DNA from: an uncultured Bacteroidales bacterium
GTDB taxonomy: Bacteria > Bacteroidota > Bacteroidia > Bacteroidales > P3
DNA length: 64,000 bases
Direction: 5' to 3'
Assembly (NCBI GenBank): GCA_944321735.1
Contig: CALUMK010000014.1
Location: 1-64,000, forward strand
Made by a program: the position numbers and the translations under genes. The notes under the pieces were generated by a model. It searched no databases and was not told the origin of the DNA. It saw only the letters and a program-made list of their open reading frames with translations. Numbering within the stretch: the first letter of the stretch is position 1; every line of letters starts with the position of its first letter. Below are positions 38,844-46,269 of this stretch, in pieces.

Positions 38844-40301
38844 ATGCAAATGAAACTGAAAGAACTCTTGACGGAAGAATGCGGCATCCTCGACAGACGG
38901 GGTGCTGAAGACGTGGAGGTCATGTCTTTGCAGCAGGATTCGCGCAAAGTGGAAGCCGGATCGGTGTTCTTTGCCGTGAGAGGCACGGTTTCGGACGGCC
39001 ATGCTTTTATCGAGTCGGCGTTAGGGAAGGGGGCTGTGGCGGTGGTCTGCGAGGAACTGCCGGAGGTGTTGCGACCGGAGGTCTGCTATCTGAAGGTGAA
39101 GGACAGCAGCGTGGCGATGGGGTACATGGCTTCGGCTTTTTACGGGAATCCGTCGCGGGAATTGAAATTGGTGGGCATAACCGGAACCAACGGCAAGACC
39201 ACGACGGTGACTTTGCTTTACCGCTTGTTCAAGAGTCTGGGTTACGAAGCGGGTTTGCTTTCGACGATAGAGAACCGTATCGGGGACAGGGTGGTCCCCA
39301 GCACGCATACCACGGGCGATGCCTTGGAGATAAATGCCTTGCTGAGGGAAATGGTGGATGCCGGCTGCGACTATGCTTTCATGGAAGTAAGTTCCCATGC
39401 GGTGGTGCAGGAACGGATCGCCGGCTTGCATTTCGCCGGGGCGATCTTCAGCAATATCACGCGCGACCATTTGGATTACCATAAGACGTTCGATGCCTAT
39501 ATCAAGGCCAAGAAGAAGTTCTTCGATAATCTGCCTTCGTCGGCCTTTGCTTTAGTGAATGCCGATGACAAGAACGGCTTGGTGATGTTGCAGAATACCA
39601 AGGCTTCGAAGTATACCTATGCCTTGCGGGTTCCAGCCGATTTCAAATGCCGGCTGTTGGATGACTCTTTGTCGGGCTTGCATCTGGAAATGGATGGGAC
39701 GGAAGTGTATATGCGCCTGGTAGGCAGGTTCAACGCTTATAATCTGACGGCTATTTACGCTACGGCCTTGCTGCTGGGCATGGACAAGATGGAAGTGTTG
39801 CAGGCGATGAGCAATTTGGGGGAAGCTCCGGGGCGGTTCGAGGTGTTCAAATCGCAACGGGACGGCAAAACCGGCATCGTGGACTACGCCCACACGCCCG
39901 ATGCCCTCGAAAATGTGCTGGAAACGATCAACGAATTGCGGCAGGACGGCCAGCAAGTGATTTGCGTGGTAGGCTGCGGCGGAAACCGGGATGCAGGCAA
40001 ACGCCCTGAGATGGCCCGGATTGCCGCCCGCCTCTCCGACCGTCTGATTATCACTACCGACAATCCCCGCTTCGAGGAACCCCAGGCCATTGCCGAGCAG
40101 ATGAAAGCCGGCTTGGATATGCTGGATGCCGCCAAGAGCCTCTGCATCTTGGATCGGGAGGAAGCCATCAAGACCGCTTGCGCCTTGGCCGGGCCGGAGG
40201 ATGTGATTTTGGTGGCGGGCAAAGGGCACGAGCCGTACCAGGAGGTGAAAGGCGTGAAACACCATTTCGATGACAGGGAGGTTCTGGTCAAATATTTGTG
40301 A
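38844..40301 (+). CDS. murE: UDP-MurNAc-L-Ala-D-Glu:meso-diaminopimelate ligase MurE
   Basis: A 485-residue Mur ligase that adds the third residue to the peptidoglycan precursor. Visible are the substrate domain (SLQQDSRKVEAGSVFFAVRG), the ATP site GITGTNGKTTT, the carbamylated-lysine region, RFEVF, and the DNPR motif (TTDNPRFEEP) that marks meso-diaminopimelate specificity. The wall is therefore expected to be of the DAP type. It starts 184 bp after ftsI, with a degenerate repeat in the gap. Confidence 0.95.
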   Translation: MQMKLKELLTEECGILDRRGAEDVEVMSLQQDSRKVEAGSVFFAVRGTVSDGHAFIESALGKGAVAVVCEELPEVLRPEVCYLKVKDSSVAMGYMASAFYGNPSRELKLVGITGTNGKTTTVTLLYRLFKSLGYEAGLLSTIENRIGDRVVPSTHTTGDALEINALLREMVDAGCDYAFMEVSSHAVVQERIAGLHFAGAIFSNITRDHLDYHKTFDAYIKAKKKFFDNLPSSAFALVNADDKNGLVMLQNTKASKYTYALRVPADFKCRLLDDSLSGLHLEMDGTEVYMRLVGRFNAYNLTAIYATALLLGMDKMEVLQAMSNLGEAPGRFEVFKSQRDGKTGIVDYAHTPDALENVLETINELRQDGQQVICVVGCGGNRDAGKRPEMARIAARLSDRLIITTDNPRFEEPQAIAEQMKAGLDMLDAAKSLCILDREEAIKTACALAGPEDVILVAGKGHEPYQEVKGVKHHFDDREVLVKYL

Positions 40302-40428: not shown

Positions 40429-41676
40429 ATGTTGTACTATTTGTTTGACTATTTGCATGAATGCGGAGTTCCGGGGGCAGGGGTGTTCCAATACATCTCT
40501 TTTCGGGCAGCGGCAGCTATTGTGGTGTCCCTGTTCATTTCGATGGTGGTAGGCAAACGGATTATCCGGGTATTGGCCCGCAAGCAAATCGGGGAGACGG
40601 TTCGCGATTTGGGTCTGGCAGGCCAGAAGGAAAAGGAGGGTACGCCTACGATGGGAGGGCTGATTATCATAGCCGCCATTCTGATTCCGGTGCTGTTGCT
40701 GTGCCGGTTGGACAACATCTATGTATTGTTGATGATACTGACGACGGTCTGGTTGGGCACGATGGGCTTTCTGGACGATTATATTAAGGTGTTCAAGCAC
40801 GACAAGCATGGCTTGCAAGGCAAGTTCAAGGTCTTCGGTCAGGTGGGATTGGGGTTGATTGTGGGCTTGGTCATGTGCTTCCATCCCGATATCGTGGTTT
40901 CGCAGAAGAACAACGATGTGATTGTGGAAGAGCATAACCTGTTGCAGAATACCGAGTACCAGAAAGCGGTGGCTTCGTTCGAGAACAATACCGAGAAGTC
41001 GTTGGTGACTACGATTCCGTTTGTTAAGAACAACGAATTGAGCTATACTGCCATTATGGAAGCCATTCATGACGGTTGGGGCAAATACGCTTGGATTTTG
41101 TTTGTATTGGTGGTCATCCTGGTGATTACGGCGGTTTCCAACGGCTGCAACCTGACGGATGGGATGGACGGCTTGGCCACGGGGACTTCGGCGATTATCG
41201 GGGCTACCTTGGCTATTTTGGCTTGGGTATCGGGCAATATCATCTTTGCCGACTACCTCAATATCATGTATATCCCCCATACCGGCGAGCTGGTGATTTT
41301 CATTGCGGCCTTTGTGGGTGCGGCTATCGGTTTCCTTTGGTACAATGCCTATCCGGCTCAGGTGTTCATGGGGGATACCGGAAGCTTGACTATCGGCGGG
41401 ATCATCGCGGTCTTCGCTTTGCTGATCCGCAAGGAACTGCTGTTGCCGATCCTGTGCGGGATTTTCTTGGTGGAGAGCCTTTCGGTGATTATCCAGGTGA
41501 CGTATTTCCGTTACACCAAGAAGCGTTACGGCGAAGGGCGGCGGGTGTTCTTGATGTCGCCTTTGCATCATCACTATCAGAAAAAAGGATACAAGGAGCC
41601 TAAGATAGTGCTGAGGTTTTTTATCGTGGGTATCATGCTGGCGGTGGTGACATTGGCAACGTTGAAGTTACGATAG
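40429..41676 (+). CDS. mraY: Phospho-MurNAc-pentapeptide transferase MraY
   Basis: A 415-residue enzyme with about ten membrane helices that transfers phospho-MurNAc-pentapeptide to undecaprenyl phosphate, making lipid I. Motifs: GTPTMGG in the first part, [44 protein letters not shown] and [15 protein letters not shown] charged loop of about 55 residues ([23 protein letters not shown]..) between helices is typical of Bacteroidota MraY. Confidence 0.95.
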
Positions 41677-41772
41677 ACGGGGCGTTAGTCATGGTTTATA
41701 TGGAGTAGCCGTGTGGTGATGTCGTGCGGTCAGTGTGGTAGCAAAAATGAGAATAAAGCGAGGAGAATAGAT

Positions 41773-42321
41773 ATGAGAACAAATTTGGAAATTTTAGCAC
41801 AGCAGGGTGTTGTATCCCGTTCAATGGCCGAATCGGTATCGATGAGGATCAAGGATATGCGGAAACGGGCCATTCAGGAGAGTTTTCAGGATTTTGGCCA
41901 TGCAGGGCATCGTTTGGAATACGTGGCTACAGTGAGAGGCGTGGATTACTTGGACGATGCCAAGGCTTGCAATCTGAATTCCACATGGTTTGCTTTAGAG
42001 ACCATGAAGCGTCCTGTGATTTGGATTGCAGGTGGCCAGGGCAAGGATACGGATTGGAATGCGATGAAGGATTTGGTTTCGCGGAAAGTGAAACATTTGA
42101 TTTGCGTGGGGGTGGATAACAAGGCGCTGCATACTGCCTATGGGGATTTGTTTCCGGACATGGTAGAAGCCGATTCGATGATGGCTGCGGTGCAGGCTGC
42201 ATACCTGTTGGCCAATGAGGGAGAAGTGGTTCTGCTTTCACCGGCATGTCCCAGCTTCGACTTGTTTGAAAGTTACCAGGATAAGGGCTTGCAGTTCAAA
42301 AAGGCTGTCTGCGAATTATAA
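41773..42321 (+). CDS. murD: Truncated MurD: C-terminal domain only
   Basis: A 182-residue protein in the place where MurD (about 450 residues) is expected. From GHAGHRLEYVATVRGVDYLDDAKACN it aligns with the end of the central domain and the whole C-terminal domain of UDP-MurNAc-L-Ala:D-Glu ligase, through IWIAGGQGKDTDW to VVLLSPACPSFDLFESYQDKG. The UDP-binding N-terminal domain and the GxxGKT ATP-binding domain are absent; no P-loop can be found in the frames of the 96-bp gap after mraY. AGGAGA precedes the ATG at 41773. On its own it cannot be a ligase. The C-terminal part has no frameshift and keeps family motifs, so a full murD elsewhere or a split enzyme must be considered, as well as simple decay. 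Confidence 0.85.
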   Translation: MRTNLEILAQQGVVSRSMAESVSMRIKDMRKRAIQESFQDFGHAGHRLEYVATVRGVDYLDDAKACNLNSTWFALETMKRPVIWIAGGQGKDTDWNAMKDLVSRKVKHLICVGVDNKALHTAYGDLFPDMVEADSMMAAVQAAYLLANEGEVVLLSPACPSFDLFESYQDKGLQFKKAVCEL

Positions 42322-42383: not shown

Positions 42384-43613
42384 ATGCAAAACCGAGGCAC
42401 GGGCATATTCAAGTATTTGCGAGGAGATAAGGGCATCTGGTATATCATGATGGTGCTTTCCCTGCTCTCCATTCTGGCGGTCTATAGCGCTACCGGGCTT
42501 ATGGCCTATCGCTATCAAGGCGGCCATACGGCTTATTATGTCCTCAAGCATGTGGCTATCTTGACGGCTGCTTGGATTACGATGTTCGTTGTGCACCGGA
42601 TCAAGTACACTCGTTTTGCCAAGATGTCGAAATTGCTGATTTGGCCGGTGATTTTTTTGTTGCTGTATACCTTGACCGTGGCGGCAGTCAATGATGCCAG
42701 CCGATGGATTTCGATATTCGGCTTTACTTTTCAGACTTCGGAACTGGCCAAGGTCGTGTTGGTGGTATATATGGCTCGGGTTCTGACCAAGTATCAGCCG
42801 GAAATAAAAGAATCCCGTTCGTTCTGGCGTATCGTGTGGGCGCCATTGGTAGTCTGCGGGCTGATCTTTTCAGAGAATTTTTCCACTGCGGCTTTGCTGA
42901 TGCTCACTTGTGTCGTGCTGATGATGGTGGGAGGGGTTTCTGGAAAACATTTGGGTGCTTTAATGGGGGCTGGCGTATTGGCGGCAGGTATCTTGGTTTC
43001 CATCTGTCTTGCGGTACCGGAAGATTCTCTTCCCGGCCGTCTGGCAACATGGAAAAGCCGGATCGAGGGATTCACCTCCGATTCGGAAGAGGCTTATCAA
43101 GTGACGCAGGCTAAGATTGCGGTGGCTACGGGCGGAATTATCGGTAAGGGTCCCGGCAATAGCACGCAGAGGAACTTTTTGCCGCATCCGTATTCGGATT
43201 ATATATATGCTTTGATTATCGAGGAATATGGCATGGCTGTCGCCATTGTGGTTTTGTTCCTTTACCTCTGGTTTTTGCGGCGGGGAATCAGTATAGCCCG
43301 GCGTTGTAAGGGATCGTTTGGCAGTTATGTGGTGTTAGGTATGACTTTCATGTTGACATTGCAGGCTTTGGTAAATATGGGGGTTGCGGTCGATTTGCTT
43401 CCTGTGACGGGACAGCCGTTGCCCTTTTTGAGCATGGGGGGAACCTCTCTTTTATTTACTGCTTTGGCTGTAGGAATCGTGTTGAGCGTGAGTGCCTCTG
43501 TGCAGGAGCAGGAGGAATCGGAGGCGATGGCGCCCCTAAGACCTAAAGCGGCTTCTTCTTTGTCGCGGGCGCGGATATTGCAGCCGGCAGCTGCGGATGG
43601 GAAGCCGCAATGA
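42384..43613 (+). CDS. ftsW: Septal peptidoglycan glycosyltransferase FtsW
   Basis: A 409-residue SEDS-family polytopic membrane protein with about ten helices. Family stretches: LSILAVYSATG, FQTSELAKVVLVVYMARVL, LIFSENFSTAALLMLTCVVLMMVGGV and GVAVDLLPVTGQPLPFLSMGGTSLL. It polymerises lipid II with FtsI at the septum. Its place between murD' and murG favours FtsW over RodA. Start at 42384 (MQNRGTG) or 42366. Confidence 0.93.
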   Translation: MQNRGTGIFKYLRGDKGIWYIMMVLSLLSILAVYSATGLMAYRYQGGHTAYYVLKHVAILTAAWITMFVVHRIKYTRFAKMSKLLIWPVIFLLLYTLTVAAVNDASRWISIFGFTFQTSELAKVVLVVYMARVLTKYQPEIKESRSFWRIVWAPLVVCGLIFSENFSTAALLMLTCVVLMMVGGVSGKHLGALMGAGVLAAGILVSICLAVPEDSLPGRLATWKSRIEGFTSDSEEAYQVTQAKIAVATGGIIGKGPGNSTQRNFLPHPYSDYIYALIIEEYGMAVAIVVLFLYLWFLRRGISIARRCKGSFGSYVVLGMTFMLTLQALVNMGVAVDLLPVTGQPLPFLSMGGTSLLFTALAVGIVLSVSASVQEQEESEAMAPLRPKAASSLSRARILQPAAADGKPQ

Positions 43614-43650
43614 TGTGTTTTTGTTTTATGATAGAGAAAATCAGAATGAT

Positions 43651-44832
43651 ATGGAAGCGACGGATAATGCAATAGGAAATGCCAATGGTAACATTCGGGT
43701 GGAAAGCCCGGTACGAGTGATTATCAGTGGCGGAGGAACGGGAGGACATATCTTTCCGGCCATTGCCATTGCCAATGAAATAAAACGTCGGAAGTCCGAT
43801 GCGGAAATTCTTTTTGTGGGAGCGGAAAACAGGATGGAAATGGAAAAGGTTCCTGCTGCAGGATACAGGATTGTGGGTTTGAATGTGGTAGGGTTGAATC
43901 GCAAACAATGGTGGAAGAATTTCTCCTTGCCATTCAAACTGGCTTCGAGCTTGCGTCTTACCAGACGGATGATTAAGGATTTCGATCCGGATGTAGTGGT
44001 TGGTGTTGGCGGGTATGCCAGTGCGCCCACTTTGTATTCGGCGCAGAAGTTACATGTGCCTACGTTGTTGCAGGAGCAGAATTCCTTGCCGGGGGTTACG
44101 AACAAGATTCTTGCCAAGAAGGCCGATAGGATATGCGTGGGTTATGACGAAATGGATCGTTTCTTCCCAAGGGAAAAGATAATCTGGACAGGAAATCCTA
44201 TCCGGCAGGATATTTCGGACATCAATAGCAAGCGGGATGAGGCTTACTCTTTTTATAATTTGGATTCTTCTAAACCAGTGGTTCTGGTCATGGGGGGAAG
44301 TTTGGGGGCTTTGAGTATCAATGTGGGGATGCAGAATGCTTTGGACGACTTGCTGGCAAATGGTTTTCAGGTGATTTGGCAGACAGGCAAGTATTATTAT
44401 CAGAGAATGTTGCCCTCGGCAGAAGGCAAGGAGCATTTGGTGATGCTCGATTTTGTGCGTCGGGTGGATTTGGCATATGCGGCGGCGGATATCATTGTTT
44501 CACGGGCCGGGGCAATCACGATTTCTGAACTTTGCGTGGTTGGCAAGCCGGTTATTCTGGTTCCATCGCCCAATGTGGCTGAAGACCATCAGACAAAAAA
44601 CGCACAGGCTTTGAGTGCTAAGAATGCAGCCGTATTATTGACCGACGACAGGGTGTCCCAGGAACTTGGCAAGACTATTGTGGCTTTGTATCATGATACT
44701 CGCCGGAGAGAGCTTCTTTCGCAGAACATTTCCCGCATGGGGACGACGACTGCCGCGCGCGATATTGTGGATGAGGTATTGAAACTTGCCCAGATAGGCC
44801 GTAGGCAAAAGGAAAACCGCAAGAACAAGTAA
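43651..44832 (+). CDS. murG: UDP-GlcNAc:undecaprenyl-PP-MurNAc-pentapeptide transferase MurG
   Basis: A 393-residue GT-B glycosyltransferase making lipid II. Motifs: ISGGGTGGHIFPAIAIANE near the N terminus, VVGVGGYASAPTLYSAQ, LLQEQNSLPGVTNK, VMGGSLGALSIN, VSRAGAITISELCVVGKPVILVPSP. About 25 extra residues precede the first strand from the chosen ATG at 43651. The stop is immediately followed by the murC start. Confidence 0.94.
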   Translation: MEATDNAIGNANGNIRVESPVRVIISGGGTGGHIFPAIAIANEIKRRKSDAEILFVGAENRMEMEKVPAAGYRIVGLNVVGLNRKQWWKNFSLPFKLASSLRLTRRMIKDFDPDVVVGVGGYASAPTLYSAQKLHVPTLLQEQNSLPGVTNKILAKKADRICVGYDEMDRFFPREKIIWTGNPIRQDISDINSKRDEAYSFYNLDSSKPVVLVMGGSLGALSINVGMQNALDDLLANGFQVIWQTGKYYYQRMLPSAEGKEHLVMLDFVRRVDLAYAAADIIVSRAGAITISELCVVGKPVILVPSPNVAEDHQTKNAQALSAKNAAVLLTDDRVSQELGKTIVALYHDTRRRELLSQNISRMGTTTAARDIVDEVLKLAQIGRRQKENRKNK

Positions 44833-46269
44833 ATGATGAACGCAGGAGATTTCAAGCATCCGTACTTTTTGGGAATAGGCGGCATCGGAATGAGCGCCTT
44901 GGCTTGGTATTACCTGCGGAAAGGCTGTTTGGTGCACGGTTACGATAGGATCCCGTCTCCTTTGACGCGGCATCTGGAACAGGCAGGAGCGGAAATCCAT
45001 TATGACGAAGATCCGGAAAAACTTCCTGCTGATACGGATGTGGTTGTCTATACACCGGCTATTCCTCAAGATCATGCTGAGTGGCCGGAGATTCACCGCA
45101 GGGAAATCCCGGTTTTGAAACGGGCTGAGGTTTTGGGGATGATTTGCAGGGACTATACCACTTTGGCAGTGGCTGGCACGCATGGCAAGACAACGACTTC
45201 GTCGATGCTGGCTTATCTGTTGCGGCATAGTGTGGGGTGCAATGCCATCCTGGGGGGCGTTTCTCTTGATTTGGACGGAAACTACCATTACGATGCCTCC
45301 AGTTCGTTGATGGTGACGGAGGCAGATGAGTACGACCGTTCATTCTGGCAGTTGTATCCTTGGTTTTCTGCCGTGACCGCTTGGGATGCCGACCATTTGG
45401 ATGTTTATGGCAGCGTGGAAAACATGCGTGCTGCATATTGTCGGTTTATGCGTCAAAGTACGCATTTCATTGCTTGCGAAAGCATGAAGGCAGACCTTCG
45501 CGAACCTAAGGCGGATTATTTCTACGGGCAGGATTCTTGGGAAGAAAACTTGGAATCGGGCTTTGCAGTAGAGAGGGTTGAAGAAGGGAGGCAAGTCTCG
45601 GCTCGGGCTGTACATGTTAGGGTTCAAAACGGGGCTTATCATTTCGATTATGTCGGGCCTCGCGCTGCGATTTGCGGGCTGGAGCTGCATTGCCCCGGTC
45701 GGCACAATGTGCTCAATGCGGTAGCTGCCATCAGTTTGGCTTTGGAATCCGGTGTGGGGCCGGGTGATGTGAAGCGCTTGCTCCCGGGTTTCAAGGGGGT
45801 GGCGCGGCGTTTGGAACTTAAGGACAGGGCGGTAGGCCGTCTTTATTATTATGATGATTACGCTCATCATCCTGCCGAAATCAAGGCTTCGGTGGATGCT
45901 TTGAGGGAATTTTATCCCGAAGCCCGGCTTTGCATCGTGTTCCAACCGCATCTTTATACGCGTACCCGCGATTTGGCTGATGGATTTGCCAGGAGTTTGT
46001 CAGAAGCGGACGAACTCTTTCTGGTCGATATTTATCCGGCAAGGGAGCTCCCGTTGGACGGTGTGGATACGCATTTGATTGGCGATAAGATAGCGGGCAA
46101 GGAAGTGCATTATGGCAGCCGGGAAGATGCTTTGGCTTGGATTGAGAGGAGGATTTCCCGGATGAGGGAATGCGCTGGTTGCTTGGTTCTGGTAACCATG
46201 GGGGCCGGTGACATAGATCGGATTGTGGATCAGGTTGGAGCATTGGTGAAGAAGGAGGCTGGAGTATGA
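44833..46269 (+). CDS. murC: UDP-MurNAc:L-alanine ligase MurC
   Basis: A 478-residue Mur ligase that adds L-Ala to UDP-MurNAc. FLGIGGIGMSALAWYYL is the UDP-binding start, AGTHGKTTTSSMLAYLL the P-loop, EADEYDRSFWQLYP and YDDYAHHPAEIKASVDALRE conserved motifs. Start at 44833 directly abuts the murG stop (ATGATG; 44836 is equally possible). Its stop overlaps the ftsQ start by four bases. Confidence 0.95.
   Translation: MMNAGDFKHPYFLGIGGIGMSALAWYYLRKGCLVHGYDRIPSPLTRHLEQAGAEIHYDEDPEKLPADTDVVVYTPAIPQDHAEWPEIHRREIPVLKRAEVLGMICRDYTTLAVAGTHGKTTTSSMLAYLLRHSVGCNAILGGVSLDLDGNYHYDASSSLMVTEADEYDRSFWQLYPWFSAVTAWDADHLDVYGSVENMRAAYCRFMRQSTHFIACESMKADLREPKADYFYGQDSWEENLESGFAVERVEEGRQVSARAVHVRVQNGAYHFDYVGPRAAICGLELHCPGRHNVLNAVAAISLALESGVGPGDVKRLLPGFKGVARRLELKDRAVGRLYYYDDYAHHPAEIKASVDALREFYPEARLCIVFQPHLYTRTRDLADGFARSLSEADELFLVDIYPARELPLDGVDTHLIGDKIAGKEVHYGSREDALAWIERRISRMRECAGCLVLVTMGAGDIDRIVDQVGALVKKEAGV

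Follow-up and report, generated by a model that had tools for sequence, protein, structure and literature searches.

How can a cell wall gene cluster whose neighbouring genes are complete hold only the last third of murD, and what would such a remnant do? We examined this question in the dcw cluster of an uncultured Bacteroidales bacterium, contained in an analysed stretch of 64,000 nucleotides (hereafter the window). The cluster lies on the plus strand in the order murE-mraY-orphan-ftsW-murG-murC, the orphan being an open reading frame with its own ATG (41773 to 42321) that encodes 182 aa and is referred to here as MurD-C. A preliminary description of this DNA had given the span as 41677 to 42321; the end was correct, whereas 41677 is the first base past mraY and the ATG is at 41773. 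Either the interval 41677 to 41772 lies wholly between genes, or part of it belongs to an open frame that begins with a GTG at 41713. This in-frame extension (41713 to 41772, plus strand) would give a 202-aa version of the protein, and it is probably not translated because the frames of most relatives start near the ATG. As described earlier, AGGAGA (41761 to 41766, plus strand), a ribosome-binding-like motif read from the sequence, precedes the ATG by 6 nucleotides. The surrounding genes, all on the plus strand, are complete: murE (38844 to 40301; NF001126, 604 bits), mraY (40429 to 41676; TIGR00445, 321 bits), murG (43597 to 44832; TIGR01133, 290 bits) and murC (44833 to 46269; TIGR01082, 353 bits) exceed their profile cut-offs, and ftsW (42384 to 43613) is full length by TIGR02614, the best of six family matches at 261.7 bits, below the cut-off of 337.5.

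The profile searches bore out the earlier view that murD is reduced here to its C-terminal domain, with the UDP-binding and ATP-binding domains missing. MurD-C matched TIGR01087 (murD) at positions 270 to 439 of 441 (152.5 bits, E 1.8e-44), a score below the 211.95-bit cut-off for the three-domain enzyme; a second NCBIfam family did not appear at E<=0.001. Its sole Pfam match was Mur_ligase_C (E 1.4e-11), and the P-loop domain Mur_ligase_M was absent from both the 182- and the 202-aa protein at E<=1. Among solved MurD chains, MurD-C aligned roughly to the last 150 residues (11 distinct sequences, E<=0.01); homologues with 64-86% identity occurred in 12 named GTDB contigs. The orphan resembles full-length dcw MurD in its homology over the last ~170 residues, in its place in the cluster and in 40-53% identity to the full-length frames of relatives, but differs in the absence of the N-terminal UDP-binding and P-loop domains and in the partial or whole loss of ligand residues. 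Judged from this domain content, MurD-C alone cannot ligate, because the P-loop (ATP) domain is absent.

Three explanations had been offered: a full MurD encoded elsewhere, a split enzyme, or a changed precursor pathway. The genome assembly (2.71 Mb, 39 contigs, 94.7% complete) contained one further full match to the murD profile, a 1045-aa frame on contig C2 that is a MurL-MurD2 fusion. Its first half matches MurL (NF041275, 241 bits, E 1.7e-71, below the 700-bit Xanthomonadales cut-off) and its second half matches the murD profile (TIGR01087, 235.9 bits, above cut-off). This MurD2 has a C-domain by TIGR01087, the match running to position 440, and Pfam Mur_ligase_C was undetected in it at E 0.1. 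Glutamate racemase MurI had no match in the genome even at E<=10, and no D-amino-acid transaminase exceeded the cut-off (best 41.5 bits versus 277.45), so that no other D-Glu source was found in the 94.7% complete assembly. The idea of a full MurD elsewhere therefore holds solely for a non-orthologous MurD2, a putative L-Glu ligase; a full canonical MurD was rejected, MurD2 being the only full match. A split enzyme was not borne out: the same assembly yielded no N-terminal or ATPase-only MurD piece, and every PF08245 match was accounted for, the remaining ones being MurE, MurC, MurF, MurF-Alr, a MurC/Mpl-like ligase below both cut-offs and a MurB-FolC fusion. What fits is the changed pathway, with the MurL-MurD2 fusion present, MurI absent and no other MurD found; from gene content, the peptidoglycan precursor pathway is most likely altered, its MurD step having passed to MurL-MurD2. 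Two further features of the genome were that MurB is fused to FolC (G000:C1, L004:334-2634; 767 aa; 372 and 362 bits) and that there are two MurF genes (L010, L002), one free and the other fused to alanine racemase.

We then surveyed 120 related genomes, counting MurL at E<=0.001 and MurI over its curated cut-off (146.65 bits). MurL was present in 82, MurI in 32, both in none and neither in six. Racemase-like matches of 21-43.5 bits (E<=0.001) in three MurL-positive genomes (G056, G098, G112) lay far under the MurI cut-off. In the window's own family (73 genomes), 68 had MurL and none had MurI over cut-off; the five without a MurL match are 76-90% complete, and one of them (G031) has MurD2. 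The orphan accompanied ftsW in the fetched locus of 63 family members and lay directly 3' of mraY in another (G064); six had an orphan-sized frame, one a contig-edge fragment and two no true mraY that was found. A full dcw MurD was seen in none of the 73. MurL-positive genomes of other families (14) were divided: six had the orphan, seven a full-length dcw MurD (L106, L108-L113), and one (G092) yielded no true mraY. Of the seven full proteins, six had P-loop, D182, H183 and K348 intact; in the seventh (G084) the N-terminus is disturbed near a contig end and the P-loop further on is intact. None of these seven genomes had a D-amino-acid transaminase over cut-off, the match in G118 reaching 140 bits. 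A full MurD was present in all 25 fetched MurI-positive loci (32 MurI-positive genomes in all), and orphan and MurL occurred together in 64 of the 70 orphan genomes fetched. Across a phylum sample of 148 genomes, searched at a threshold (E<=1e-40) that would miss diverged orphans, 147 had a murD match over cut-off, that of the window's own genome being MurD2; the exception was G197, with no murD match, and in G130 the match extended over the first 279 positions only.

An assembly deletion is excluded as the cause because many separate assemblies show the same arrangement. To judge by its distribution, the MurD remnant is a widely conserved gene in its own right. The window's genus group probably includes Candidatus Pullibacteroides excrementavium, since the orphan DNA of G011, of the same genus, is identical to that of this organism. 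The same Bacteroidales dcw cluster is contained in database records titled Ruminococcus flavefaciens (L029) and Bacteroides sp. (L030), the first of which looks like a mislabelled MAG.

The MurL-MurD2 proteins of these relatives share features with the pathway of Xanthomonas, in which L-Glu is ligated and then epimerised. The GGGKDS motif was present in 43 of 43 MurLs. MurL and MurD2 (L237-L276, L009, L183, L184) were fused in 34 of 43 loci and adjacent yet separate in three; in six, MurL occurred without MurD2 in the fetched stretch. MurL matches in all 82 relatives stayed below the 700-bit NF041275 cut-off. According to PMC8788868, D182E and K348R in Xanthomonas MurD2 replace residues of the D-Glu-specific MurD, and the L-Glu signature positions are E182, R348, P414 and F416. 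Glu at 182 and Arg at 348 were found in all 37 MurD2 domains compared, every one from the own family, which also invariably had T321 and S415; the D182E/K348R signature occurred in none of 31 full dcw MurDs. At the other two positions, Pro was present at 414 in 5 of 37 and Tyr, not Phe, at 416 in 37 of 37. MurL homology, the Glu and Arg signature of MurD2 and the absence of MurI are thus common to both systems, which differ in that here, in Bacteroidales, a single fused protein predominates (34 of 43 loci). By the portions available of PMC8788868 and PMC5808125, the MurL route is known from Gamma- and Alphaproteobacteria and actinobacteria, and orthologues of low similarity occur in cyanobacteria as well as in a fungus and an amoeba; these portions do not mention Bacteroidota, and the main text of neither paper contains the word Bacteroidales.

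Trees of MraY+FtsW+MurG placed the MurL-positive genomes, together with MurL-less members of the family, on one side of a branch with support of 0.997 in one tree and 100 in a quick tree built from 45 genomes, out of 102 for which a dcw MurD had been fetched. The free 45-genome tree did not recover the own family as one clade, and a tree constrained to hold it together scored higher. Full and orphan states were interleaved on the MurL side, requiring six changes in the quick tree, G087 included; a single orphan origin on that side was nonetheless compatible with the data (AU p 0.361). G087 (98% complete, about 10 contigs; L107), with a degenerate 170-aa orphan in dcw, falls on the MurI side of the tree and therefore represents a second truncation, clearly separate from the MurL-side orphans and near the same cut point. 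Searches of this genome returned no MurI, MurL or MurD2 match; a full MurD was missing as well, and nothing exceeded the MurC cut-off. Its ligases are MurE, MurF, FolC and one MurC/Mpl-like protein (murC 251 bits, mpl 194, both below cut-off). Mpl with scavenged tripeptide can bypass MurC, MurD and MurE, and G087 could use this bypass if its MurC/Mpl-like ligase is Mpl.

The 70 fetched orphan loci (63 from the own family, seven from other families) were next examined as genes. The frame was open in all 70 (161-185 aa, median 179), in a sample biased against broken copies by having been fetched for a match, and no internal stop occurred among the orphan matches listed for relatives. ftsW was present in all 70 loci and mraY in 69, the 70th ending at a contig edge. 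Length and place were kept in all 12 genus groups of the own family, g8 being represented by a contig-edge fragment only. Starts were assigned by script as the ATG giving the length nearest 180 aa, and stop-to-stop frames were <=200 aa in 62 of 70. Full-length Bacteroidales MurD has an internal Met, and the start so chosen coincided with its column in 58 of 70 and lay <=4 columns from it in 10; in two the alignment put the first residue far from it. Same-genus pairs numbered 210, of which 81 were saturated. In all 11 with dS <0.5, dN/dS was 0.009-0.133; the 16 pairs at dS 0.5-1 gave 0.042-0.653, the high values falling in pairs with large dN, and more divergent pairs gave 0.2-0.65 with dS near saturation. 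In 15 close pairs, hand-picked and in part sharing a genome, median dN/dS was 0.061 for the orphan, 0.041 for mraY, 0.081 for ftsW, 0.061 for murG and 0.065 for murE. Even the most eroded orphans (161-162 aa), no longer listed by the murD profile, gave dN/dS of 0.013 at dS 0.20 (G027/G070). The orphan is under purifying selection about equal to that on mraY, ftsW, murG and murE.

We compared residues in E. coli MurD numbering, transferred to the alignment by motif; the positions include D317, T321, S415, F419 and F422. Near orphans (n=22) retained R302, D317, S415 and F419 in 22 of 22, K319 in 20 and K348 in 10, with A414 changed to Pro in 19. Among the numbered MurD positions, D182, K348, A414, L416 and K319 are named in PMC8788868, and Arg302 in PMC4816537. 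In the far, diverged orphans (n=47), K319 remained in six, T321 in five and S415 in seven, and residues 416-417 were a gap in 42. The same proteins kept D317 (43 of 47), the N (44) and W (46) of the NxTW motif (NATW), the W and I of a WI pair (45 each) and a C-terminal V (45), and had several fixed residues that canonical MurD lacks, one example being F38 (44 of 47; L in 25 of 25 canonical proteins). Thus ligand residues disappear and core residues are retained; by this alignment, MurD residues for ATP, substrate and Glu are mostly lost in diverged orphans.

We propose, with a probability of roughly 0.6, that MurD-C is a pseudo-enzyme: a non-catalytic, probably protein-binding component of the lipid II machinery, kept after catalysis moved to MurL-MurD2. 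MurD catalysis would have passed to the MurL-MurD2 route. Comparison shows that this clade has lost the two front domains of its former dcw MurD, the rest, from near an internal Met, persisting as a separate gene. Most likely its product binds other proteins of the cytoplasmic lipid II machinery or acts as their scaffold; MurG, FtsW and MurE are the first candidate partners. A role in protein binding explains most simply why selection outlasts loss of the ligand site. MurD reportedly interacts with MigC in Acinetobacter. Thermotoga MurD, MurE and MurF are reported to bind MurG (PMC6420597). Covariation of branch-rate residuals (35 genomes, seven proteins each, six partners tried) gave +0.31 for the orphan with FtsW, +0.29 with MurG, +0.35 with MurE, +0.07 with MraY and -0.09 with each of MurL and MurD2, against +0.56 for the positive control, MurL with MurD2. 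The FtsW signal persisted in four test variants; on tip branches, the MurG interval included zero and MurE fell to +0.05. Rate covariation thus weakly favours FtsW, MurG or MurE over MurL-MurD2 as candidate partner.

That last comparison bears on a different role, in which the orphan acts in trans on MurL-MurD2, as a subunit or regulator that might, for instance, stand in for a divergent MurD2 C-domain or aid it. Its co-occurrence with MurL in most orphan genomes and the failure of Pfam to detect Mur_ligase_C in the own MurD2 point this way, but MurD2 has a C-domain of its own by TIGR01087, with T321, R348 and S415 invariant, its rates and those of MurL do not covary with the orphan, and G087 has an orphan with neither partner; we regard such a role as unlikely. 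Improbable, too, is a ligand sensor or carrier that would still bind D-Glu, UDP-MurNAc-Ala-Glu or nucleotide and thereby signal how much precursor is present. The conserved R302, D317, S415, F419 and K319 of near orphans would suit it, whereas K348 is kept in fewer than half of them, far orphans have largely lost K319, T321, S415 and residues 416-417, and strong selection persists within the far genera. Erosion of catalytic motifs in far orphans might also be expected of a decaying pseudogene that is open by chance. Low dN/dS in close pairs, selection like that on neighbouring genes, and a length and place preserved over the genus groups led us to reject a dying gene, which we consider very improbable. 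For a split enzyme or assembly deletion, nothing speaks beyond first impression; since none of the matches in the own genome is an N-terminal half of MurD and separate assemblies show the same structure, it is hardly credible.

A further possibility concerns origin: full-length murD of Bacteroidota may already yield a C-terminal product from the internal Met, a nested gene that deletion of the front exposed. Met occupies this column in 21 of 25 MurI-positive, 7 of 7 MurL-positive and 19 of 30 other-phylum-member full-length MurDs. Moreover, when mRNA structure was compared with synonymous shuffles at 101 sampled columns in 56 genes, this column was the least structured, in a set from which six near-duplicates had been dropped by eye; paired tests with these six still included gave p 0.016, 0.011 and 0.003. 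However, other internal Mets are equally conserved, genes with and without the Met do not differ significantly (0.89, n=42 versus 0.37, n=14; p 0.18), the column ranks third in the seven MurL-positive genes alone, the statistics rest on related genes and overlapping windows that are not independent, and a Met would be required in any case after front loss. We therefore think a nested gene rather unlikely. Doubtful, though offered as a tentative extension of the pseudo-enzyme reading, is that in Bacteroidota the last third of MurD also performs an essential task other than catalysis, in division or in making lipid II, possibly as a nested product, and that MurL-MurD2 let the enzyme shrink to this function, at least twice.

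A stand-alone MurD C-domain was named in none of the literature titles and abstract openings searched, a scope outside which subscription papers and preprints fell. Non-catalytic relatives of Mur ligases are known in the MurE-like proteins of the plant plastid RNA polymerase complex. As proposed for MurD-C, these keep the Mur ligase fold for a role other than ligation; they work in plastid transcription and keep more of the enzyme, whereas the orphan consists of the C-domain only and resides in a cell wall operon. MurD is usually viewed as an enzyme and drug target. The conserved last third of the protein hints at an unrecognised non-catalytic job, and a lineage that lacks MurD catalysis but keeps the final domain, selected about as strongly as its neighbours, allows a possible structural role to be told apart from the chemistry, making such a role of the MurD C-domain directly testable. 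In addition, the MurL-MurD2 route, with its gene fusion, is now extended to many uncultured Bacteroidales.
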